Source: Pseudanabaena yagii GIHE-NHR1 (lineage in GTDB: Bacteria > Cyanobacteriota > Cyanobacteriia > Pseudanabaenales > Pseudanabaenaceae). Taken from it: a stretch of DNA of 64,000 nt. Each line of letters opens with the position of its first letter. Position 1 is the stretch's first letter. The translations under genes were made by a program, and so were the position numbers. Shown one piece after another: positions 10,834-21,020 of the stretch. Location: positions 2,414,001-2,478,000 of the forward strand of contig NZ_JAAVJL010000001.1 in assembly GCF_012863495.1 (NCBI RefSeq), given 5' to 3'. Under the pieces are notes generated by a model. That model was not told where the DNA came from, ran no database searches, and saw nothing but the letters and a program-made list of their open reading frames with translations.

Positions 10834-11324
10834 TTTTGAACTATTTCACTCAAAGACAACATATAACTAAAAGATTGATTGATATTTTTAGAGCCAACCC
10901 AAACTTGATAAGTACCTTTAGGTAAACGTCGATTGGCTTGTGGATAACGCCCACCTGACTCATCATCGGCACAAATCACAATGCCATTAGGTCCTTTTAC
11001 TAACATGGTTGGGTCATCATTAACATTATTGGTATAAACCAATAGATCTAGCAAAGGAAAATTTTCGTTCAAAGTAATCGTGTGATTTGGTTCAGCATTT
11101 GCGAAACCACGACAATTATCCGCAATTCCCGCAAGACTCGCAAGACTAACATTCCCCCCTCCATTTCCTAGCAACTTTTCAGGATCTGGTCGAAAATTGC
11201 GATCTAGCGTGATCGCACTTTGAGCAAAACTAGGAGCAGCGATCGCCAATGTTACGGCAATTCCTGCCAAGGCTCCCCAGCCTAGATTAGCCATATTCAC
11301 TTGGCAATTCTTATAAATGTCCAT
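10830..11324 (-). CDS. Secreted protein, first of a tandem paralogous pair
   Basis: 164 residues from the ATG at 11324, which has GGAG six bases upstream; an in-frame ATG four codons earlier (11336) has no such site. Signal peptide WGALAGIAVTLAIAAPSFAQ with cleavage after SFA. The mature domain has RNFRPDPEKLLGNGGGNVSL, DNCRGFANAEPNHTITL, MLVKGPNGIVICADD and GTYQVWVGSKN, parallel to its downstream paralogue. Two to three cysteines suggest a disulfide. The pair is an operon made by tandem duplication. Function unknown. Confidence 0.75.
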   Translation of the reverse strand: MDIYKNCQVNMANLGWGALAGIAVTLAIAAPSFAQSAITLDRNFRPDPEKLLGNGGGNVSLASLAGIADNCRGFANAEPNHTITLNENFPLLDLLVYTNNVNDDPTMLVKGPNGIVICADDESGGRYPQANRRLPKGTYQVWVGSKNINQSFSYMLSLSEIVQK

Positions 11325-11514
11325 ACTTGACTCCATTGAGGTCTAGTTACATTAACTTAAATGCACTAATTTGGTACTTGCTGTACTTTCAGGCTTTACT
11401 TCAAGGATGCACTGTACTAAACATCAGGACAAAATAGCAGTAATTTTGTTCCCAATCTCATTCTTTTAACAATTGCAATGCTATATAGAAAAAAGAGTTA
11501 GCGAGTACAAACCA

Positions 11515-11567
11515 AAACCAGAAGATGAGTTGCGGGGTTTTGCCCCGCAACTCATCTTCTGGTTTTA
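11515..11567. repeat. 24-bp perfect hairpin in a divergent intergenic region
   Basis: Arms 11515-11538 and 11544-11567 with loop TTTTG. It is not next to any gene end, so terminator function is doubtful; a dispersed palindrome is more likely. Confidence 0.6.
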
Positions 11568-11646
11568 TGTCCTGAGCAAAACTTGCTTTGCTATAGATCT
11601 ATTGTAACAAAATATTAAGTTATTGCTGTCATGATGGTATGACTCC

Positions 11647-11693
11647 TTGACAGCATCAGATTCTCCCTGTACCTTAGTTGCATACCCGGGTAT
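11647..11693 (+). promoter_or_regulatory. Promoter-like site and 12-bp palindrome upstream of the RHH gene
   Basis: TTGACA at 11647-11652 is followed after 17 bases by TACCTT (11670-11675), a weak -10. A perfect palindrome ATACCCGGGTAT lies at 11682-11693, 18 bases before the RHH start. Ribbon-helix-helix proteins often bind short palindromes in their own promoters, so this is a candidate autoregulatory operator; that is inference. Confidence 0.45.
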
Positions 11694-11711
11694 TCACTGT
11701 TCTTAACCACT

Positions 11712-12029
11712 ATGCAAGACAAGCAAAAGGTAACTTTTTATCTCCCCGAACGACTACATCAGCAGCTTAAGATTCGCTCTGCTATTGATGGTGATTCGAT
11801 GTCAGACTTGGCAGAAAAGGCAATTAGCTTTTACCTATCCCACGCTGACATTGTGGAGTCTTCAGGTATCGGGCATACTCATCAAACTTATAACTGTCCA
11901 AGCTGTTCTCAGACAGTCGTAATCCGTAATGGTGACTTGCTAGCCATCGGGGGCAATCGTACTCAGACTTTACCTGTAACTGTTGGCAAGGCTGATAGCG
12001 CAGGCGAAGAACTAGTATCCATTAACTGA
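11712..12029 (+). CDS. Ribbon-helix-helix DNA-binding protein with C-terminal Cys pair
   Basis: 105 residues. Residues 5-45 fit a CopG/RHH fold: strand KVTFYLPERLHQQLKIRSA, then helix DSMSDLAEKAISFYLSH. The C-terminal part carries CPSC, which could bind metal if dimerised, and then strands VVIRNGDLLAIGG. It lies 74 bp upstream of ycf46 in the same direction. Because no toxin gene follows, it is more likely a small regulator than an antitoxin. Confidence 0.75.
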   Translation: MQDKQKVTFYLPERLHQQLKIRSAIDGDSMSDLAEKAISFYLSHADIVESSGIGHTHQTYNCPSCSQTVVIRNGDLLAIGGNRTQTLPVTVGKADSAGEELVSIN

Positions 12030-12103
12030 ATTTCTAGACTCTAGACCATTAATTTTATCTGTAGACAAGGTGAGGATGGAGGCGTAAACCTCTGTATTAC
12101 TAT

Positions 12104-13618
12104 ATGCAAGAACAACTTAGCATTTTAATTCAAGCCCAATATCCCTTGATCTACCTCAACACCCCAGAGGAAGAAAGAGCAGAACGGGCAATCGCTACCA
12201 TCTCTCAACTCAAACCTGTACGTCGCGTCTTTGTATGGACTTCGACTCGTGGCATTGTTGAGCATGGTCAAGCGACAGCAGCAGCCCAACACAACACCGA
12301 GTCAATCCAAGCAGCTTTGCAATGGGTTATCCGTGCCGATCAAAAAGATCCTGCTATTTACATCTTTAAAGACGCACATCCTTTCTTTGATCATCCCGTA
12401 GCTGTTAGATTCTTACGGGATGCAGTGGCTAACTTTAAGGGCACTCAAAAAACAATCATTTTGATGTCGCCCATTCAAGTAATCCCTGTTGAACTAGAGA
12501 AAGACATCGTTGTACTTGATTTTCCTCTGCCAGATATTAAAGCGATCGAAGAAGTCCTCGACCAACAGCTTGGACAAGTCCGCACTAAGAAGATATCTTC
12601 AGAAACTCGCGAAAAGCTAGTCAGGGCAGCCCTAGGTCTTACTCAAGATGAAGCTGAAAAGGTCTATCGGAAAGCCCAAGTCACCAGTGGTCGGCTTACT
12701 GAAGAAGAAGTTGATATCGTCCTTTCCGAAAAGCAACAACTAATTCGGCGCAATGGCATTCTCGAATATATCGAAGATGAAGAAGATTTAGATGCAGTTG
12801 GGGGACTAGAAGAGTTAAAGCACTGGTTGCAACAGCGATCGAATGCCTTTAGCCAAAGAGCCAGAAACTATGGATTACCTCAACCGAAGGGAATGCTGAT
12901 TCTCGGTGTCCCCGGTTGTGGAAAATCCTTAATTGCCAAGACTACGGCTCGACTATGGTCGCTACCACTTATTCGCCTTGATATGGGTCGCGTTTATGAT
13001 GGTTCTACTGTAGGTAAGTCAGAAGCAAATTTACGCAATGCCCTCAAAGTTGCCGAGTCGATTTCACCAATGATTCTATTTATTGATGAACTAGATAAAG
13101 CCTTTGCTGGTGGTGCAGGTTCGGCAGATTCCGATGGTGGTACATCATCACGAATCTTTGGTACGTTCCTAACATGGATGCAGGAAAAGAAATCACCTGT
13201 ATTTGTTATGGCAACTGCCAATCGTATCGAAAAGTTACCGGGGGAATTTCTTCGGAAGGGGCGTTTTGACGAGTTATTCTTCGTTGATTTACCTAATTCC
13301 GAAGAACGGAGAGATATCTTCCGAATTCATTTACGGAAGCGTCGTCCAGATTTAGAAAGGTTCGATCTTGAGCAGCTATCGAAAGTAAGCGATGGTTTTT
13401 CGGGGGCAGAGATCGAGCAAGCGGTAATAGCCGCTATGTATGAAGCTTTTGCCCAAGATCGGGAGTTTACACAGCTAGATATCATTTCGGCTGTGAAATC
13501 TACAACTCCCCTCTCACGCACAATGACTGAGCAGGTTGCTGCTCTGCGTGACTGGGCAAGGATGCGGGCAAGACCCGCCGCCACCTCTGTCGCTGAATAT
13601 CAGCGTATGGAGTTTTAA
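12104..13618 (+). CDS. ycf46: Ycf46-type AAA ATPase
   Basis: 504 residues, the usual length of Ycf46. The N-terminal 230 residues are the family-specific domain (QAQYPLIYLNTPEEERAE); the AAA module follows with Walker A GVPGCGKS (268-275), Walker B ILFIDELD (324-331), sensor 1 MATANRIEKLP and the GRFDELFFVDLP second region of homology with arginine finger. Ycf46 is found in cyanobacteria and red-algal plastids; work in Synechocystis has linked it to inorganic carbon uptake or stress, but its substrate is unsettled. ATG at 12104. Confidence 0.95.
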   Translation: MQEQLSILIQAQYPLIYLNTPEEERAERAIATISQLKPVRRVFVWTSTRGIVEHGQATAAAQHNTESIQAALQWVIRADQKDPAIYIFKDAHPFFDHPVAVRFLRDAVANFKGTQKTIILMSPIQVIPVELEKDIVVLDFPLPDIKAIEEVLDQQLGQVRTKKISSETREKLVRAALGLTQDEAEKVYRKAQVTSGRLTEEEVDIVLSEKQQLIRRNGILEYIEDEEDLDAVGGLEELKHWLQQRSNAFSQRARNYGLPQPKGMLILGVPGCGKSLIAKTTARLWSLPLIRLDMGRVYDGSTVGKSEANLRNALKVAESISPMILFIDELDKAFAGGAGSADSDGGTSSRIFGTFLTWMQEKKSPVFVMATANRIEKLPGEFLRKGRFDELFFVDLPNSEERRDIFRIHLRKRRPDLERFDLEQLSKVSDGFSGAEIEQAVIAAMYEAFAQDREFTQLDIISAVKSTTPLSRTMTEQVAALRDWARMRARPAATSVAEYQRMEF

Positions 13619-13792
13619 AAAGCTTATCCTACTGTTTTGCAGGCAGTAGGGTTAAGGCTAGATTCTAAAGAATGTCTTCTTAAAAGACCTTTAGGCTAGC
13701 AGCTAACATAGGAGTAAGAACCACCAAAACTCTTATGTTTCACGTCCGAGTTAACAGTTGAGTTCACAATTATTTACAGGAGCTACACTATT

Positions 13793-14143
13793 ATGTCTCA
13801 TTTCAGCACTCTTCGCACAAAAATTACTGATGCCGAAGTCCTCAAGTCGTCTTTGCGCGATCTGGGTATTACCGTTAATACTGAAGCTGATGTTCGTGGC
13901 TATAACAGCCAACGCATCCGTGCCGACATTGTAGCGACTCTTGAAGGTGACTATGATCTAGGTTGGTCACGCAATGCTGATGGATCTTTTGATCTAATTG
14001 CTGATCTCTGGGGTGTTGCGAAAAAGCACAATCAGACTGAACTGATCAATTCGATCAATCAAAAGTATGCAGTGAACAAGGCTCTAGCTGAAGTGAAGCG
14101 TCCTGGTCTAAACAATGCAAACGTCAAACTCGTCTTGCAGTAA
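13793..14143 (+). CDS. ycf35: Ycf35 family protein (DUF1257)
   Basis: 116 residues starting MSHFSTLRTKITDAEVL, the canonical Ycf35 N-terminus, and including LGITVNTEADVRGYNSQ and DYDLGWSRNADGSFDLIADLWG. The family is conserved in cyanobacteria and some plastids; function is unknown. A good ribosome-binding site (CAGGAG) lies 12 bases before the ATG. The 174-bp gap after ycf46 contains only weak hairpins, so the two may be separately transcribed. Confidence 0.95.
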   Translation: MSHFSTLRTKITDAEVLKSSLRDLGITVNTEADVRGYNSQRIRADIVATLEGDYDLGWSRNADGSFDLIADLWGVAKKHNQTELINSINQKYAVNKALAEVKRPGLNNANVKLVLQ

Positions 14144-14175
14144 GGTGTCGAATCTTGCGAGTTAAATATGCAACT

Positions 14176-14211
14176 AACGGGCTAGTCATATCCTTGGCTA
14201 GCCTGTTTTTT
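14176..14211 (+). terminator. Terminator after ycf35
   Basis: Stem AACGGGCTAG / CTAGCCTGTT (one G-T-type mismatch) with a 12-nt loop and a T-tract after it, 33 bases past the stop. Confidence 0.7.
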
Positions 14212-14283
14212 GGGTTTCTAGCTTCACATTTCTCGATTTTAAATGTAAGATACTGATACATAATTTGAGCTAACATCGCCCTA

Positions 14284-14952
14284 ATGGAAATTGCGATCGC
14301 CCTCTTGCAACATTACAGTTTCGATCTTGGTGGCTATACCATCAATGATTTAACTCGTGAATGGAACAAGTTCAAGCCTGAGTGGGTGCGTCAAGCAGTA
14401 ATCGAAGCACTGTTTCAAGGAAGATATAAAGCTGTTTCTGTTAGCCAAATTTTGCAGCTATGGGAACGTAAGGGAGAACCCAATTGTCGCTACAATCGTG
14501 AGTTTGAGCGACTGGTATGTGGTGATGTAGCCGTAATTTATGAAGATAGAATTTACTATACGCCGCCTCGTACTGCTTCTCGCGAAGTACCGATTACCGA
14601 AATAACTCCCTTTGCTCCAGCAGAAAAAACTACTTCGCCGATTCCATTTCCTCGTCGTTCCAAGGTCGCAGGTATTCCGATCGCTTCAACGCCTCAACCT
14701 AAGCCACAAAGATATCCTGACCGTCTGGCTGCTTTGCCATCAGGAACGACTGCATCTACTCAAGTTTATCCACCAATCCTAAATGTAGAATATTCAGAAG
14801 CCTATCGATCTGCCTATGAGAACATGACTTTGTTGGCGGAGACTTCAATATTTGTCGATAAGTTGCGGTCAATGTGTAGCGATCGCTTAGTTTTACCTGT
14901 TCCTGAATTTATCACCGAGCAGGAGAAGGTAGAAATCACTGCTGACAGCTAA
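14284..14952 (+). CDS. Conserved-looking cyanobacterial protein of unknown function
   Basis: 222 residues. The first 90 form a compact domain with DLTREWNKFKPEWVRQAVIEALFQGRYKAVSV and SQILQLWERKGEPNCRYN, followed by a Pro/Ser/Thr-rich linker (about 95-165) and a short C-terminal helix-rich segment ending in LPVPEFITEQ. No TM or signal peptide. The arrangement suggests a folded nucleic-acid- or protein-binding head plus disordered tail, but I do not recognise a named family. ATG at 14284 begins right after an AT-rich promoter-like region. Confidence 0.65.
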   Translation: MEIAIALLQHYSFDLGGYTINDLTREWNKFKPEWVRQAVIEALFQGRYKAVSVSQILQLWERKGEPNCRYNREFERLVCGDVAVIYEDRIYYTPPRTASREVPITEITPFAPAEKTTSPIPFPRRSKVAGIPIASTPQPKPQRYPDRLAALPSGTTASTQVYPPILNVEYSEAYRSAYENMTLLAETSIFVDKLRSMCSDRLVLPVPEFITEQEKVEITADS

Positions 14953-15338
14953 ATTTAAGGCATTGCATAGAGCGTAAACTTTGGCGGGAAAAACTTGATT
15001 CTATATAGTGGTTTATATTCTCAACCCTAAAAGAGATGATCTGCTATGCAAACCATCTCTCTTAGCCCAAAAGTAAAAGCCTTGCTACGCAAGGCTTTTA
15101 CTTTTGGGCTTTTAAAACTTATCAGCTTAACCCGAACTGAGGTTAAAGTTAGGGATTCGGGGTTGAGAATATGAATAAAATATAATATTGGCTGAGCGAA
15201 ACCAAAGCTACCCAAATTACAAATGGTTTAAGATCTCTATAAATTACGGTTTCTCGCTAAAGTGGATAAGCACAACACCTCCAAACCATCAAGAAATTGT
15301 GAGGAATTTTGGATTGCTTTCAAAAATTCCTGTAATTT
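14953..15338. other. Intergenic region dominated by a palindromic element
   Basis: No gene is supported. It holds a MITE-like repeat (15042-15143) nested inside a wider imperfect palindrome: ATATTCTCAACCC near 15015 is mirrored by GGGGTTGAGAATAT near 15157. Confidence 0.5.
15042..15143. repeat. MITE-like palindromic repeat, copy A
   Basis: The right two thirds match the element inserted in the antitoxin gene near 62085-62188: TGCTA.GCAAACC, then a CCCAAAAGTAAAAGCC hairpin (15064-15085 / 15089-15110, loop TAC), TTTTAAAA, and the end CTTAACCCGAACTGA.GT. Its left end is not clear. On the minus strand it reads as the same spurious peptide (VRVKL..FK..KVKAL..KAFTFG) that tails the broken antitoxin. 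Confidence 0.7.
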
Positions 15339-16910
15339 ATGTTTATGAGATCAACCCCATTTATTCCTATTGCCGTATTTATCCTTACCCTTGCCCTGAT
15401 CGGTTGGGGATACATCCGATCGCGCAAATTTGGCAAACTCGGACTACTTTCTTGGCTGCAATTCGTAGCCTTGATGTCGCCTTGGTTAGTTTACTTTGGC
15501 TTGTTTGTCTCAGGTGTTTTTATTAATTTCACAACGCTATTGTTTCTATTACTCGGTTCGACGATCGCCTATGTGGCGATCGGCAACCAATTGCGTAAGG
15601 TGGCTACTGCTGAGAGATCAGAGATCGAACAAAAGCTAAAACGGGATCTTGAAGCTAGTAGCGATCGCGCTAATTTGCAGAGCGATTCGGCAAATAATCA
15701 ATCCCCAACTCAACCTGTAAATACGCCCATTGCTGTAGCCATGTCTCAGGGGAAGACACAGCTAAGACTGTTTAAAGCGCTCCCTCCCGAAGACCTGAAG
15801 CTGATACAGGGTATTTTTGGGATTGAAACCTATTACCTCACCGAGACGATTCCCTATCAAGAGGGAGCCATTTTTAAAGGTAATTTGCGCGGTGAGCCTG
15901 ATGTTGTCCACGATCGCTTAACGACATCTTTGCGCGATCGTCTTGGTAATAAATACAATCTATTTTTGGTAGAAGGTCAAGACCGCAAGCCTGTGGTGAT
16001 TGTGCTGCCACATCGAGATATTGCCGTTGATAATGACACAATTCCTCAAAGGATTTTGATTGCGGTATTGATTTTTGCAAATGCTTATACAGCCTTGAGT
16101 TTAGGAGCACAGGTAGCTGGTATTCCCGCCGCACAGACTGCTCAAGACTATTTAGCAGGATTGCCCTTTGCCCTTGGTGTTGCCACGATTTTAGGCATTC
16201 GTGAACTTGCAATGCGATTTATGGCAAATAAATATAAAGTCAAGCTGAGTTTGCCATTTCTCTTGCCTTCATCACAATTAGGCTCCTTTGGTGCATTTAG
16301 CCGCATTTTTTCACCCCTGCCAAATCGTCAGGCTCTATTCGATATTGCGATCGCCCCAGCAGTTGCTAGTGGCTTGTTATCTTTAATCGTACTGATTGCA
16401 GGTTTATATCTATCGGCGATCGGTATGGGTAGTATTGAGATCCCTAGCCAGATTTTCCAAGCTTCGGTATTAGCAGGAACCCTTGCCAAGCTATTTCTCG
16501 GTGATGCGCTCCATAATAATTTGATCTCAATTCATCCTCTAGTAATTTTGGGTTGGCTTGGTTCCGCGATTACGGCTCTAAACTTGATGCCTGCGGGACA
16601 GTTGGATGGTGGTCGCATTGTCCAATCCGTTTATGGACGGAGGATCGCTAGTTGGACAACGGTATTAACGCTAATTTTCTTGGTAATTGCCACGGTGATT
16701 AATCCCCTTGCGCTCTATTGGGGCGGTATTGTCTTAATTCTCTTGCGCGATCTCGAACGTCCAATGCTGAATGAATTGTCAGAACTAGATGGCGATCGCG
16801 AGGCTTTAGGAGTTGTGGCTTTGTTTTGGATGGTGGTGACTTTATTACCGCTTACTTCTGGTGTAGCAGAGAGGCTCGGCATCGGTAGTGGTGGCGGGCT
16901 AATTCCTTAA
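15339..16910 (+). CDS. EGY-like site-2 protease family protein, HExxH motif lost
   Basis: 523 residues, multi-pass membrane protein: TMs near 8-25, 38-60 and 62-85, a soluble region about 90-235 (with EDLKLIQGIFGIETYYLTETIPYQEGAIF, typical of EGY relatives), and six or more TMs after 236. The second metal motif NLMPAGQLDGG (415-425) is kept, but the first, normally HELGH, reads RELAM (288-292): both zinc histidines are replaced while Glu289 remains. It should therefore be a non-proteolytic S2P relative, comparable to plant EGY3. Start ATG 15339 or 15345. Ends at a strong terminator. Confidence 0.85.
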   Translation: MFMRSTPFIPIAVFILTLALIGWGYIRSRKFGKLGLLSWLQFVALMSPWLVYFGLFVSGVFINFTTLLFLLLGSTIAYVAIGNQLRKVATAERSEIEQKLKRDLEASSDRANLQSDSANNQSPTQPVNTPIAVAMSQGKTQLRLFKALPPEDLKLIQGIFGIETYYLTETIPYQEGAIFKGNLRGEPDVVHDRLTTSLRDRLGNKYNLFLVEGQDRKPVVIVLPHRDIAVDNDTIPQRILIAVLIFANAYTALSLGAQVAGIPAAQTAQDYLAGLPFALGVATILGIRELAMRFMANKYKVKLSLPFLLPSSQLGSFGAFSRIFSPLPNRQALFDIAIAPAVASGLLSLIVLIAGLYLSAIGMGSIEIPSQIFQASVLAGTLAKLFLGDALHNNLISIHPLVILGWLGSAITALNLMPAGQLDGGRIVQSVYGRRIASWTTVLTLIFLVIATVINPLALYWGGIVLILLRDLERPMLNELSELDGDREALGVVALFWMVVTLLPLTSGVAERLGIGSGGGLIP

Positions 16911-16945
16911 AAAAGAAGCGCACCCAAAGGGTGCGCTTCTTTTTT
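16909..16945 (+). terminator. 17-bp terminator hairpin
   Basis: Arms 16909-16925 and 16929-16945 with a 3-nt loop and T-tract; starts at the stop codon of the site-2-protease-like gene. Confidence 0.85.
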
Positions 16946-17056
16946 GGATTATTGAACTGTAGAGAGCGTAACAACAACGTTTTGTCCCAAGTCATTGGTA
17001 AAGAATTCTGTGGGCTTTTCGTGACAAGTTATAGCAGTTCTAAATAAGTTAAAAGA

Positions 17057-17110
17057 GGCTTCGACTCCGCTCAGTCAAAGTATTATAGATGGCTGAGCGG
17101 AGTCGAAGCC
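17057..17110. repeat. Dispersed palindrome, CTTCGACTCCGCTCAG type
   Basis: Arms 17057-17074 and 17093-17110 are perfect complements with an 18-nt loop, followed by a T-tract. The same arm sequence is at 20930-20973. This kind of palindrome is common between cyanobacterial genes. Confidence 0.7.
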
Positions 17111-17163
17111 CTATTTTTTATTTGAATTATCTATATAAAAGAATAGATGACAGATTACAAATC

Positions 17164-18198
17164 CTATTCTTGGGGAGGTGGAGTAAATTTCTCGTTATCT
17201 GATGGTGGATTAAAGGGTTTAATTTCAGGTAACGGGGGTTTAGATTCAGGCAAATTGCGTAGGGTTGGGGGAATGTTGCTAACGGCTCCAAAGGGTTGCT
17301 TAGCGATCACCTCAGCCATCTTGTTATCAGTCATCGCTAATAAAGATTGAATTGCCCCTGGTATGGAATGGGGGTCCATAAACAAAACTTTACTACTCGG
17401 ACTTTGACCGATCGCCTGACCCATTTCTAGATATTTCTGAGCTAATAAATATTGCACTGCATCCCTGCCATGAGTATGATTAGCGATCGCCTCAGCAATT
17501 CGCTCGATCGATAAAGCCATTGCCTCAGCCTGTTCTAGCTGCACCTGACGCTCTGATTCGGCAAGGACTTTATTGGAGAGAGCTTCCGCCTCCGCTTTTT
17601 TGATTTCGGAAGTTTTTTCACCTTCAGACAGCGAGATCATGGCTTTTTTCTCGATTTCAGCAGCCTTTTGCTTTTCCATCGATTGCAGTACTGAGGTCGG
17701 GATCGTGATTTCGCCTAGTCTGACCCGTAAAACTTTAATGCCCCAGTCCTTTGTGTCACTAGATATGCCTTCTAAAATTTCGTCGTTAATCCGCTCTTGC
17801 CCACCAATGATGTTATCCAGATCGCATCGCCCAATCTGAGTTTGGATTTGGGTGGCAAGGGAAACAACGAGAGATTTATCCACATTCTCAATATTGTATC
17901 TCGCCTGTTTGAGATCCGTAATTTGCCAATACATTACTCCACTGACGCTGACACTGACGCTATCGGAGGTGGTGCAGGGTTGTGGTGAAATTTCTAAAAC
18001 CTGTTCGCGGGCGCTTTTAATGAGAGTAACGCGATCGAGAAATGGGAGAACGATGTTAATCCCCGGTTCCATCGTTTTTTGATATTTACCGAATCTCTCT
18101 ACCAGTGCAATTTGCCCTTCTTCAATAATCCGAAAGGAGCGATAGATATAAGTGCCACTTAAAAGAGCGAAAACAATACTGAAAATAGTTGCTTCCAT
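17164..18198 (-). CDS. SPFH/Band 7 (stomatin/prohibitin-like) membrane protein
   Basis: 344 residues from the ATG at 18198, which has AAGG at suitable distance; an in-frame ATG nine codons upstream is less likely. One N-terminal TM (TIFSIVFALLSGTYIYRSF), then the Band 7 domain with QIALVERFGKYQKTMEPGINIVLPFLDRV, then a long Glu/Ala-rich coiled coil (EIEKKAMISLSEGEKTSEIKKAEAEAL) and a Pro-rich tail. Family members form membrane-associated rings that organise proteases or lipid microdomains. No NfeD-type partner is adjacent. Convergent with the palindrome at 17057. Confidence 0.92.
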   Translation of the reverse strand: MEATIFSIVFALLSGTYIYRSFRIIEEGQIALVERFGKYQKTMEPGINIVLPFLDRVTLIKSAREQVLEISPQPCTTSDSVSVSVSGVMYWQITDLKQARYNIENVDKSLVVSLATQIQTQIGRCDLDNIIGGQERINDEILEGISSDTKDWGIKVLRVRLGEITIPTSVLQSMEKQKAAEIEKKAMISLSEGEKTSEIKKAEAEALSNKVLAESERQVQLEQAEAMALSIERIAEAIANHTHGRDAVQYLLAQKYLEMGQAIGQSPSSKVLFMDPHSIPGAIQSLLAMTDNKMAEVIAKQPFGAVSNIPPTLRNLPESKPPLPEIKPFNPPSDNEKFTPPPQE

Positions 18199-18289
18199 AG
18201 ATAAACCTTTTAATGGAGTATGCACTCATTTGCAGATCGCTATATAGCAATACGATCTGCACAAAGTACAGATCGTGGTTAGGTTTGAG

Positions 18290-18514
18290 TTAGCTGACTA
18301 ATTCTATTTCATGATCACTTAAATGTGTCACAAATCTAGGTGTAAATCTCACTTCATAGGGATAGTTGGGGCTGATCGGACGACCATGCCACTCTGTATG
18401 TATACGCACAACTTCTCCTTCTAGTCCTGTAATCTCAAAGGAGTTACCCTTGTGTTCAGGATGATGAAAGACACTGAGTTGTGTCTTTACACGAACGCGA
18501 TCGCCAACCTTCAT
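18290..18514 (-). CDS. ftrV: Ferredoxin-thioredoxin reductase variable subunit
   Basis: 74 residues, the normal length. MKVGDRVRVKTQLSVFHHPEHKG, GLEGEVVRIHTEWHGRPISPNYPYEVRF form the SH3-like barrel of the FTR variable chain. It stabilises the catalytic subunit, which passes electrons from photosynthetically reduced ferredoxin to thioredoxin. The catalytic subunit gene is not in this window. ATG at 18514. Confidence 0.93.
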   Translation of the reverse strand: MKVGDRVRVKTQLSVFHHPEHKGNSFEITGLEGEVVRIHTEWHGRPISPNYPYEVRFTPRFVTHLSDHEIELVS

Positions 18515-18625
18515 AAATTCTGATGTATCCCAATGTAAACGATATTTCTCAATTATCGCTTGTTGAGGTTGTCAATGCCAATTAATAAAATTCAATGCTT
18601 TGCATCACATTTTTATAGCAATTTA

Positions 18626-18674
18626 CCCAAGAGGATAGTGGGCGGAGCTTAGCTCCACCCACTATCCTCTTGGG
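18626..18674. terminator. 24-bp hairpin downstream of rsfS
   Basis: Arms 18626-18649 and 18651-18674, one mismatch. Lies between the ftrV start and the rsfS stop, both on the minus strand, so it may terminate rsfS. Confidence 0.65.
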
Positions 18675-18726
18675 CTTACTCGTAGAAAGCACCATTAATC
18701 GCTTACTTGAAAAGCACTATATTTGG

Positions 18727-19146
18727 CTATTCTGCAACAGGAAAAGCCACTTCTAACTTTGGTGCATGTCCCCAAAATGCCTCTAGGTCATAATATTCAC
18801 GTTCCTGAGCCATCATTGCATGGACAATCACATCACCATAGTCCAGCAAAATCCATGTGCCATCCTGTTCACCTGCGATATGTCTAGGCTTACGTCCAAA
18901 CTTTTCTTCGATCGCCTCTTCGGTAGCACCTGCGATCGCCCGTACCTGTGCCTTAGAAAATCCTGAGGCAATGACAAAATACTCTGCCAAACTAGAAACT
19001 TCACCGATCGCTAGCAAAACGATATTCTCTCCCTTGCGATCGTCAGCAGCGATCGCCGCCGCCTTGGCGATTTGATAGCTTTGTTCTTGTTCTCTTTGAC
19101 TAAGTTGGAGATCTGGGGAGGTAGGGATATCGGTGGCGATGGTCAT
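18727..19146 (-). CDS. rsfS: Ribosome silencing factor RsfS (Iojap)
   Basis: 139 residues. Core DDRKGENIVLLAIGEVSSLAEYFVIASGFSKAQVRAIA, then EQDGTWILLDYGDVIVHAMMAQEREYYDLEAFWGHAP, the RsfS/Iojap signature. The family binds ribosomal protein uL14 and blocks joining of subunits under nutrient stress. ATG at 19146; the first 25 residues are a variable Gln-rich lead. Confidence 0.95.
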   Translation of the reverse strand: MTIATDIPTSPDLQLSQREQEQSYQIAKAAAIAADDRKGENIVLLAIGEVSSLAEYFVIASGFSKAQVRAIAGATEEAIEEKFGRKPRHIAGEQDGTWILLDYGDVIVHAMMAQEREYYDLEAFWGHAPKLEVAFPVAE

Positions 19147-19253
19147 AGTTGACAGATGTACTCCTGATAAATTATTTCAGCACAGCTATATTGTAACTTG
19201 ATTACCAATAAAGGCGGCGCGAAGCACATCAGATAGATTTGTTGTGTCGTAAC

Positions 19254-19290
19254 GTAAGGATGGGCGGCGCGAAGCGCCGCCCATCCTTAC
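19254..19290. terminator. 17-bp hairpin after the GNAT gene
   Basis: Arms 19254-19270 and 19274-19290, loop GAA; carries the GGCGGCGCGAAGCGCCGCC core seen after the binding-protein gene. A second fragment of the core (GGCGGCGCGAAGC) lies at 19213-19225. The right arm ends one base before the GNAT gene's stop codon. Confidence 0.75.
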
Positions 19291-19893
19291 CTATTTAGTA
19301 GCACCAATTTTTTTCTGTAATAAAAATCTTCTAGGCTGCCCCAGTAGCCAATAATTGAAGGCACCTTCTTGGTCATGGATGCGATAACCAATCTCATCAT
19401 ACAGATTACGCGCTGGATGATTATCCTCTAGCACATGCATATACAATCGCGAAAACCCCCATTGTTTTACGGTTTGCTCGGCGGCTCGGAGCAGTTGCTT
19501 TGCCACCCCCCTTCGTCGCCATTTTGGATGCACTGCTAAGTTAAAAATATAGGGATATTGCTGCATGGTGCGCCCGAGCCAAAAGCCGCGATAGGATTTT
19601 GTTGGTACATAGCGCATACAAATTTCTAATGAAGCGATCGCTTGGGACTTGTTGGCAGTATGAGTAGCGACAAGACAGGCATAGCAAGGTGTTTGCTCAC
19701 TAAAGCGACTATTGAGATCGAGCATAATTCCATAGCGCAACAGTGGATAGACTAAATCCGTAAAATAGCGCAGCAAAAAATTGACTTTGTGATCGTGTCT
19801 CCGATAAAAGCTTTCGGTCAAAATGTCTGACACATGACCAACATCCCTAGAACTAGCGTGACGAATGATAAACGAGGAAGATTGTCTTTGCAC
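19291..19893 (-). CDS. GNAT family N-acetyltransferase
   Basis: 200 residues. N-terminal FIIRHASSRDVGHVSDILTESFYRR; acetyl-CoA-binding motif A in YIFNLAVHPKWRRRGVAKQLLRAAEQ (R-R-x-G-x-A); motif B DNHPARNLYDEIGYRIHD. Similar architecture to cyanobacterial and plastid GNAT enzymes; the acceptor could be a protein N-terminus, lysine or small amine and is not predictable. ATG at 19893; divergent from ksgA across a 180-bp region full of GATAAT/ATTATC-type short repeats. Confidence 0.88.
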   Translation of the reverse strand: MQRQSSSFIIRHASSRDVGHVSDILTESFYRRHDHKVNFLLRYFTDLVYPLLRYGIMLDLNSRFSEQTPCYACLVATHTANKSQAIASLEICMRYVPTKSYRGFWLGRTMQQYPYIFNLAVHPKWRRRGVAKQLLRAAEQTVKQWGFSRLYMHVLEDNHPARNLYDEIGYRIHDQEGAFNYWLLGQPRRFLLQKKIGATK

Positions 19894-20072
19894 ATTCAGC
19901 GCTAATAACTTAGCAATAATAATTTGGCAATGATAATTTGGCGATCATGGTCTAGCGATCATTATCTAGCGATAATAACTTAAGTACATTAGCTAGCATC
20001 CAATCAAAAAATTTTAGTGCCTACAATACTAAAGAATTTGGTGGATGCAAAGCACCTAATTTAGCGATCGCA

Positions 20073-20897
20073 ATGACCAATCTCGATAAACCCATTGATA
20101 GCTCGAACAAAATCCGCCCACGTAAACAATTTGGACAACATTGGTTGCGGAGTGATGCGGTACTTAACAAAATTTTGCGAGCGGGACAATTACAACCAAG
20201 CGATCGCATTTTAGAAATTGGACCAGGGACGGGCAATCTTACCCGTTTGCTACTGCCCTTTGTGGAGTCACTGACAGCAGTAGAAATTGATCGCGATCTT
20301 TGTGCAAAGCTTCGTAACACCATGAAGCAGCCAAATTTTCAATTAATTGAAGGTAGCATTCTGGAGATTCCCCTTCCTTCCCAAACTAATAAAGTCATTG
20401 CCAATATTCCCTACAACATCACAGGGGAAATCCTCAAAAAGCTATTAGGAACTCTCGCCGAACCAGTGCAGCAATTTGAGCAAATTGTCTTGCTAGTGCA
20501 AAAGGAAATCGGCGATCGCCTTGCCGCTAAAGCAGGACACAAAGCCTACAATGCCCTCAGTGTCAGGATTCAATATCTTGCGGATTGTCAATTTATTTGT
20601 GATGTCCCTGCCTCGGCATTCTATCCACCACCAAAGGTCAATTCGGCAGTTGTTCGCATTATTCCGCGCCCACCAATCACACCCGCCAGTGATCCTAAAT
20701 TTCTAGAGCGCTTGATTACCCTTGGTTTTGCCACGAAACGCAAGATGCTCCGCAACAATCTCATCTCAGAAATCGCTCGAGATCGCTTAGTTGAAATTTT
20801 AGAAGCAATGGGAATCAACGCACAGGTACGCGCCGAAGATCTAGATGTAGCTCAGTGGGTAGCCCTCGGTGAAGCTGTTCTCAAAACCAAAGCATAA
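20073..20897 (+). CDS. rsmA: 16S rRNA dimethyladenosine transferase KsgA/RsmA
   Basis: 274 residues. RPRKQFGQHWL (N-terminal family motif), SAM-binding ILEIGPGTGNLTRLLL (about 46-61), acidic VEIDRDL, and the N6-adenine methyltransferase motif NIPYNITGEI. It dimethylates two adjacent adenines in helix 45 of 16S rRNA during 30S maturation. ATG at 20073 is supported by the conserved distance to the FGQ motif. Confidence 0.96.
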   Translation: MTNLDKPIDSSNKIRPRKQFGQHWLRSDAVLNKILRAGQLQPSDRILEIGPGTGNLTRLLLPFVESLTAVEIDRDLCAKLRNTMKQPNFQLIEGSILEIPLPSQTNKVIANIPYNITGEILKKLLGTLAEPVQQFEQIVLLVQKEIGDRLAAKAGHKAYNALSVRIQYLADCQFICDVPASAFYPPPKVNSAVVRIIPRPPITPASDPKFLERLITLGFATKRKMLRNNLISEIARDRLVEILEAMGINAQVRAEDLDVAQWVALGEAVLKTKA

Positions 20898-20929
20898 TTA
20901 GGGACTTGCGATTAATTAAAGTACCTGTG

Positions 20930-20973
20930 GCTTCGACTCCGCTCAGCCAACGTTAGCTGAGCGAAGTCGAAGC
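20930..20973. repeat. Dispersed palindrome, second CTTCGACTCCGCTCAG copy
   Basis: Arms 20930-20947 and 20956-20973 pair with one mismatch around an 8-nt loop. Same arm as at 17057-17110. It follows the ksgA stop by 32 bases. Confidence 0.7.
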
Positions 20974-21020
20974 TAGATAACTTTGGAGGGACATTTTTTA
21001 TCCGCAAGAGCCTTATGCTA

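Follow-up and report, generated by a model that had tools for sequence, protein, structure and literature searches.

An EGY-type site-2 protease homologue retained without its zinc site in the cyanobacterial order Pseudanabaenales

The stretch of DNA analysed here (the window, 64,000 nt of the Pseudanabaena yagii GIHE-NHR1 genome) encodes an EGY-type site-2 protease (S2P) homologue, which we call EGY-A, whose zinc-binding histidines are missing. Both histidines are likewise missing from all 35 distinct EGY-A sequences that we collected from the order Pseudanabaenales, and we regard loss of the zinc site in the order's EGY-A as near certain. The state, first predicted from the letters of the window, is no single oddity: all the order members that we read show it, and it affects both of the order's EGY paralogues. 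On balance, we think it probable that EGY-A is an ancient, fixed pseudoprotease, maintained by selection, whose role is to bind membrane partners and leave them uncut, with a core in which an arginine takes the place of zinc.

The EGY-A frame, at 15339-16910 on the forward strand, runs uninterrupted from ATG to stop in the ORF listing and its translation and specifies 523 residues, in keeping with the full-length protein that had been predicted. Peptidase_M50 (PF02163) is its sole Pfam match, at 41.4 bits against a cut-off of 27.2, and NCBIfam gives it no match. A GNLR signature, which the available portion of one account calls unique to EGY proteins (PMC6131628), lies at residues 181-184 (15879-15890, forward strand, as are the other motifs given here). 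The same portion names three positions, two histidines and an aspartate, as the zinc ligands of the M50 family (PMC6131628). At the place of the first motif, HExxH, both the codons at 16200-16214 and the alignment give the degenerate RELAM (residues 288-292), exactly as first read. The sequence I-A-P-A (residues 338-341, 16350-16361) is aligned at the place of the GP motif. The second motif, NLMPAGQLDGGR (N-L-M-P-A-G-Q-L-D-G-G-R; residues 415-426, 16581-16616), is kept in the alignment and puts D423 at the third zinc-ligand position; its first eleven residues, NLMPAGQLDGG (415-425), follow the NxxPxxxLDG pattern of EGY-type S2Ps, so the claim that this motif is preserved also stands. An intact HExxH elsewhere in the protein was looked for as well, and a whole-frame motif search found no H[DE]xxH in the rest of the EGY-A frame. 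Because HExxH is missing, from the window protein as from each of the 35 order sequences, we file the window protein as a non-peptidase homologue and not as a peptidase. A tRNA scan of the window found none, a result that is irrelevant to EGY-A.

A family profile searched against the PDB found a single solved relative, the M. jannaschii S2P (3b4r, E 1.2e-4); phmmer with the single protein found no match among PDB chains. In the profile alignment to 3b4r, R288 falls on the first histidine, M292 on the second and D423 on the aspartate of the LDG-type motif. Pfam, the GNLR signature and this alignment therefore agree on an EGY-type S2P homologue without zinc-binding histidines, which is what the original prediction had proposed. 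The AlphaFold2 model of EGY-A is weak (mean pLDDT 61, with most core segments at about 70-87), and since that of an intact orthologue, used as a control, is only slightly better (mean pLDDT 66), a shallow alignment is a likely cause. Foldseek searches of the PDB gave nothing at E <= 0.001 for either model, with no S2P among the best 50 rows for the weak EGY-A model and with 3b4r as the first row, at E 0.058, for the intact control. Re-ranking with VIA-align put 3b4r at the top for the weak EGY-A model (Z 10.9 over 187 residues at 4.7 Å), followed by SpoIVFB (9.6 and 8.6) and RseP (7.7), so that the top four are all S2Ps, with an unrelated row next at 7.2; for the intact control, 3b4r leads at Z 7.8. 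Where proteins are helical, Z values below about 13 can be of little significance. These model-based comparisons suggest, and do not prove, that EGY-A may retain the S2P core.

Our search of the order covered 38 genomes, 26 of Pseudanabaena and 12 of related genera in its family. A separate search, over another set of 38 genomes that included P. yagii and 23 Pseudanabaena genomes, matched EGY-A in 37. Order sequences were taken from these 23 genus genomes, from named loci and from the 12 other-genus genomes. Once identical rows and ORFs shorter than 300 aa had been dropped, the genus accounted for 24 of the 35 distinct sequences and other genera for 11, the twelfth other-genus genome having only an N-terminal fragment that does not cover the motif (L156). 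R288, E289 and P418 are each present in 35 of 35, position 292 is variable (M in 22, L in 5, Q in 4, I in 2, W in 2), and position 423 is D in 32 sequences and E in 3. R293 is also present in all 35, at a position where W, R or Q is usual among intact relatives, and altogether 81 positions are invariant in the order, R288, E289 and R293 among them. GNLR is conserved to about the same degree as in intact relatives: G181, N182 and R184 occur in 35/35 order sequences and in 151/151 intact relatives, with L183 present as L in 32 of the order sequences and as M in 3. We also checked the closest orthologues for HExxH, and found that the nearest ones, which among named loci belong mostly to Pseudanabaena, are without it too; sequencing error or decay in a single strain is ruled out by the absence of both histidines from the whole set.

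Selection on the protein was measured as median pairwise dN/dS within the genus Pseudanabaena, using only pairs with dS of 0.1-1.5. For EGY-A the median is 0.075 (139 of 231 pairs used), which bears out the earlier view that the protein is being kept, under selection, rather than decaying. The second EGY paralogue, EGY-B, is under weaker constraint, at 0.196 (83 of 190 pairs); the CBS-type S2P gives 0.079 (12 of 45) and the intact RseP 0.039 (103 of 153). Codon 288 in the order's EGY-A is CGT in 15 sequences, CGG in 9, CGA in 8 and CGC in 3, and the Arg288 codons of the order's EGY-B are AGR in 19 of 24, with CGN found too. The occurrence of all four CGN codons in EGY-A, and of both AGR and CGN in EGY-B, thus indicates that it is the residue, and not the codon, that is maintained. 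There are 77 positions at which intact EGY-A is conserved to at least 97%; in the order the majority residue is unchanged at 69 of them and different at 8, five of the latter being H288, H292, G340, P341 and G344. Among conserved positions, then, change in EGY-A is concentrated at the active site.

Sequences from outside the order came from a class-wide sample, from the separate search that matched 37 of 38 genomes and from named loci. The class-wide sample spanned 145 genomes (order members included); EGY-A was matched at E <= 1e-60 in 122 of these, each of which supplied its motif region. HExxH is kept in 151 of the 167 distinct EGY-A sequences outside Pseudanabaenales. The other 16 include seven from one genus (g35) that read RExGH with LDGG, two from another (g12) that read RELAH with LSGG, two with TEIAH and LNGG, one apiece with GEIAR, NEIGR and YEGGR, and two with HDLGH, in which both histidines are retained. 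The g35 proteins (L297, L298, L300, L302, L305, L308 and L311) show the change of histidine to arginine with the second histidine kept in 7/7, an independent loss. The RELAH pair (L169 and L316, one genus) has serine in place of the aspartate, so an Arg-Asp pair is impossible there; EGY-B is intact in both genomes. More widely, wherever an outside-order genome has both an EGY-A without the first histidine and a second EGY, the second EGY is intact (13 of 13), and one further genome with such an EGY-A (G036) yielded a single EGY.

We placed 101 of the 258 distinct EGY-A and EGY-B rows on a tree from which the motif columns had been excluded (IQ-TREE). The order's EGY-A forms one clade (SH-aLRT 100), as do g35 EGY-A (100) and the RELAH pair (100), both of the latter nested among intact relatives. 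IQ-TREE joins the order's clade to intact clades at a fork close to the EGY-A base that it leaves unresolved; FastTree makes it the sister group of the remaining EGY-A and has the order's fast-evolving EGY-B in the outgroup. Since intact EGY-A, intact EGY-B and other M50 proteins carry HExxH, we read the arginine state as derived under either tree. Parsimony on one tree requires at least 8 changes to account for HExxH versus its absence and at least 7 to account for the residue at the first ligand position. We conclude that the first histidine of EGY-A has been lost about seven times in the sampled cyanobacteria, three times to arginine and in the remaining four cases to Y, G, T or N. As a sign of a preference for arginine, three of about seven is suggestive only. 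The original prediction, that a non-proteolytic role could be old or have evolved twice, proves to be an underestimate, given about seven losses of this histidine and an order in which both paralogues are affected.

The EGY-B of the P. yagii genome itself reads RAIAQ, with LDGG. Order EGY-B sequences come from 21 of the 26 genus genomes and 7 of the 12 others (28 distinct), and HExxH is missing from every one of them. At position 288 they have R in 24 cases, N in 2, K in 1 and H in 1, the last reading HQIAR, and Glu289 is kept in 7 of the 28. Outside the order, EGY-B is intact in 25 of 28 rows. The other three (L175, L177 and L186) read HEWTR, HKFSQ and YHFSQ, and the EGY-A of the same genomes (L170, L028 and L174) is intact. 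A careful tree of 43 rows, again without motif columns, took in seven of the order's 28 EGY-B rows, the three of genus g18 not among them; in it the order's EGY-B groups with intact EGY-B at 100/100. The idea that the order's EGY-B is a copy of the dead EGY-A was rejected, as a joint clade has a p-AU of 6e-67. The tree thus implies two separate losses of an EGY active site in the order, one in each paralogue, barring the transfer of a short stretch from one paralogue to the other.

The GP motif at 340-341 was also followed across these sets. It is present in 150 of 151 intact EGY-A sequences (the exception being a gap) and in 25 of 25 intact EGY-B, and is missing from all 35 of the order's EGY-A. 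Position 340 has proline in 34/35 order EGY-A and in 25/28 order EGY-B, a replacement of glycine that requires two nucleotide substitutions. Beyond the order, the site reads GA or GS in the g35, TEIAH and GEIAR rows; GP is retained in the RELAH pair, in the NEIGR, YEGGR and HDLGH rows and in all three degenerate EGY-B. Loss of GP thus tends to accompany loss of the zinc site, without being a rule.

An active paralogue in the same genome was among the things to be checked, and the answer was stronger than expected. A search with the Pfam model found four M50 homologues in the P. yagii genome, and only the RseP type, with HELGH, is intact. The CBS-domain S2P, which we take to be Sll0528-like, is degenerate, reading NKVAH and FEGG (L003:820-2085). 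CBS-type rows were obtained from this genome, from nine (L208-L216) of the 25 other genus genomes and from 11 of the 12 other-genus genomes: in Pseudanabaena the first histidine and the aspartate of motif 2 are lost and the second histidine is kept (10 of 10 rows), and in the other genera of the family the protein is intact (11 of 11 rows fetched). As the CBS type and both EGY proteins are degenerate, no intact zinc site is left among the EGY- and CBS-type S2Ps found in the genome. RseP is intact in 30 of the 30 order rows read, with 38 genomes searched.

The genes upstream of EGY-A encode an AAA ATPase, a DUF1257 protein and a product of 222 aa that has no Pfam match; those downstream of it, which run on the opposite strand, encode a Band_7/SPFH protein, RsfS and an acetyltransferase. 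The gene for the 222-aa protein (14284-14952), between the DUF1257 gene and EGY-A, also adjoins EGY-A in the nearest relative (L035). A conserved operon was considered and rejected, as the Band_7/SPFH neighbour is found in 5 of the 20 order loci L035-L054, several of which end at contig ends. In 16 of the 20 order loci (among L036-L054) the gene for an ABC-type ATP-binding protein is found close to EGY-A; none is among the listed window ORFs at 11000-21000. Because the window's neighbours accompany EGY-A in some named loci and not in others, we derive no function from them.

Without the two histidines, zinc and its water are unheld, so hydrolysis is not expected, and EGY-A is probably free of both zinc and activity. 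Strong constraint on a dead enzyme points to a non-catalytic job, of which binding to membrane partners would be the simplest. The zinc site has been given up, the first histidine going to arginine and the second to a variable residue, mostly methionine, and the soluble region bearing GNLR, the NxxPxGQLDGG stretch and the transmembrane core have been kept. In the mechanism we propose, EGY-A most probably binds membrane proteins and leaves them uncut, acting as a scaffold, a stabiliser or a partner-retaining factor in the thylakoid or plasma membrane, and this role would draw on a part of EGY function that never depended on proteolysis. The guanidinium group of Arg288 probably stands in for the metal, pairing with Glu289 and with Asp or Glu423 and so holding the core closed and non-hydrolytic. 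Both the scaffold role with its membrane and the salt bridge are readings of sequence. Against the replacement of zinc by arginine count the RELAH pair, which has no Asp423, the loss of Glu289 from most EGY-B and the other losses, to Y, G, T or N.

Other explanations have to be set against this one. EGY-A might serve as a regulatory decoy or subunit for another intramembrane protease, pairing with the intact RseP type or competing with it for substrates, or might work together with the dead EGY-B in the manner of iRhoms. RseP is indeed intact at all 30 order loci read, the two EGY paralogues of the order have died with the same kinds of residue change, as partners would, and the iRhoms offer a precedent (in the part of PMC3149277 available). 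However, the two paralogues differ in constraint (dN/dS 0.075 vs 0.196), and the intact second EGY of the 13 outside genomes means that pairing of dead with dead is not general; we consider this account unlikely, though not negligible. That EGY-A is still a peptidase or a metal-binder, with a site altered to use E289, D423 and another ligand, is very improbable. Such a site could be seen in E289 (35/35) and in position 423 (32 D and 3 E), as well as in the second histidine and LDGG of the seven g35 rows, yet position 292 may be M, L, Q, I or W and GP is missing from 35/35 order rows. Moreover, we know of no metalloprotease with an arginine as zinc ligand. As for a relaxed gene on its way to loss, the missing catalytic residues are what it would predict, whereas the full length, the dN/dS of about 0.075 and the 81 invariant positions of the order contradict it; conservation refutes this idea, and we give it practically no credence.

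A separate question is whether the parallel deaths of EGY-A and EGY-B were two events or one, with part of the core carried across by gene conversion. At residues 331-350 the order's EGY-B (seven other-genus rows) is nearer the order's EGY-A (0.45) than intact EGY-B (0.37), as conversion would have it, but this excess includes the changed motif itself, and the flanking residues 271-287 (0.18 vs 0.29) and 351-400 (0.23 vs 0.28) are nearer intact EGY-B. The arginine codons also differ, all being CGN in EGY-A and 19/24 AGR in EGY-B, although both have had time to drift, and the whole-gene tree without motif columns keeps the order's EGY-B with intact EGY-B at 100/100. We therefore judge conversion improbable.

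A broader reading can be put forward, tentatively and as something we think less likely than not to hold in full: that EGY proteins have a protease-independent function, separable from proteolysis and perhaps older than it; that the site has been shut down repeatedly, with arginine and the change of glycine to proline reached twice; that the result may be a metal-free core pinned by arginine; and that plant EGY3 would be one more instance. Under this protease-independent reading, a function that does not involve cutting would make the catalytic site dispensable, so that it would be lost time and again. The loss of the site with the remainder nearly unchanged suggests a second, non-cutting EGY job that evolution can keep alone. 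An order that has retained EGY proteins, with no intact EGY found in it, is a natural experiment that parts proteolytic from non-proteolytic functions, and the question is made testable by two outside lineages in which an EGY-A without the first histidine, alongside an intact EGY-B, permits comparison. The parallel changes to arginine and proline also suggest a structural route from a zinc intramembrane protease to a stable non-enzyme.

The nearest known systems are the intact EGY S2Ps of cyanobacteria, which are orthologous to EGY-A, with about 37-51% identity outside the order, and have GNLR, GQLDGG and the transmembrane core in common with it. The order's EGY-A differs from them in having no zinc histidines, in the replacement of GP at 340-341 and in the arginine fixed at 288. 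Slr0643 and Sll0862 are presumably EGY-type, and we take plant EGY1 and EGY2 to be of the same type. The available part of one paper treats the four Synechocystis homologues as S2Ps (PMC4284730), and our literature search, over titles and the openings of abstracts, found nothing on dead cyanobacterial S2Ps, although PMC3005775 and PMC3486370 may mention them. The solved relative 3b4r, unlike EGY-A, has an intact HELGH, DGG and GP motif, in a chain of 224 residues without the EGY soluble part. The iRhoms are unrelated to S2Ps in fold and chemistry. By working analogy they may be likened to EGY-A, as their catalytic residues are missing and they act on protein partners (according to the part of PMC3149277 available).

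Plant EGY3 is the closest parallel in kind, and we regard it as a probable analogue of EGY-A: it is an S2P homologue without HExxH that has a non-proteolytic role (in the available parts of PMC9355673 and PMC10978774). In these partial texts EGY3 is stress-induced and stabilises other chloroplast proteins (PMC9355673, PMC10978774), and binding to a partner, CSD2, is reported (PMC9355673). According to the available text of PMC9355673, no other pseudoenzyme is homologous to the S2P family, and EGY3 has been identified in plant cells alone, whereas the EGY-A set is bacterial and has several independent origins. What is new in comparison with EGY3 is a group of EGY pseudoproteases that is bacterial and recurrent, takes in two paralogues of a single order and carries a fixed Arg/Pro signature.
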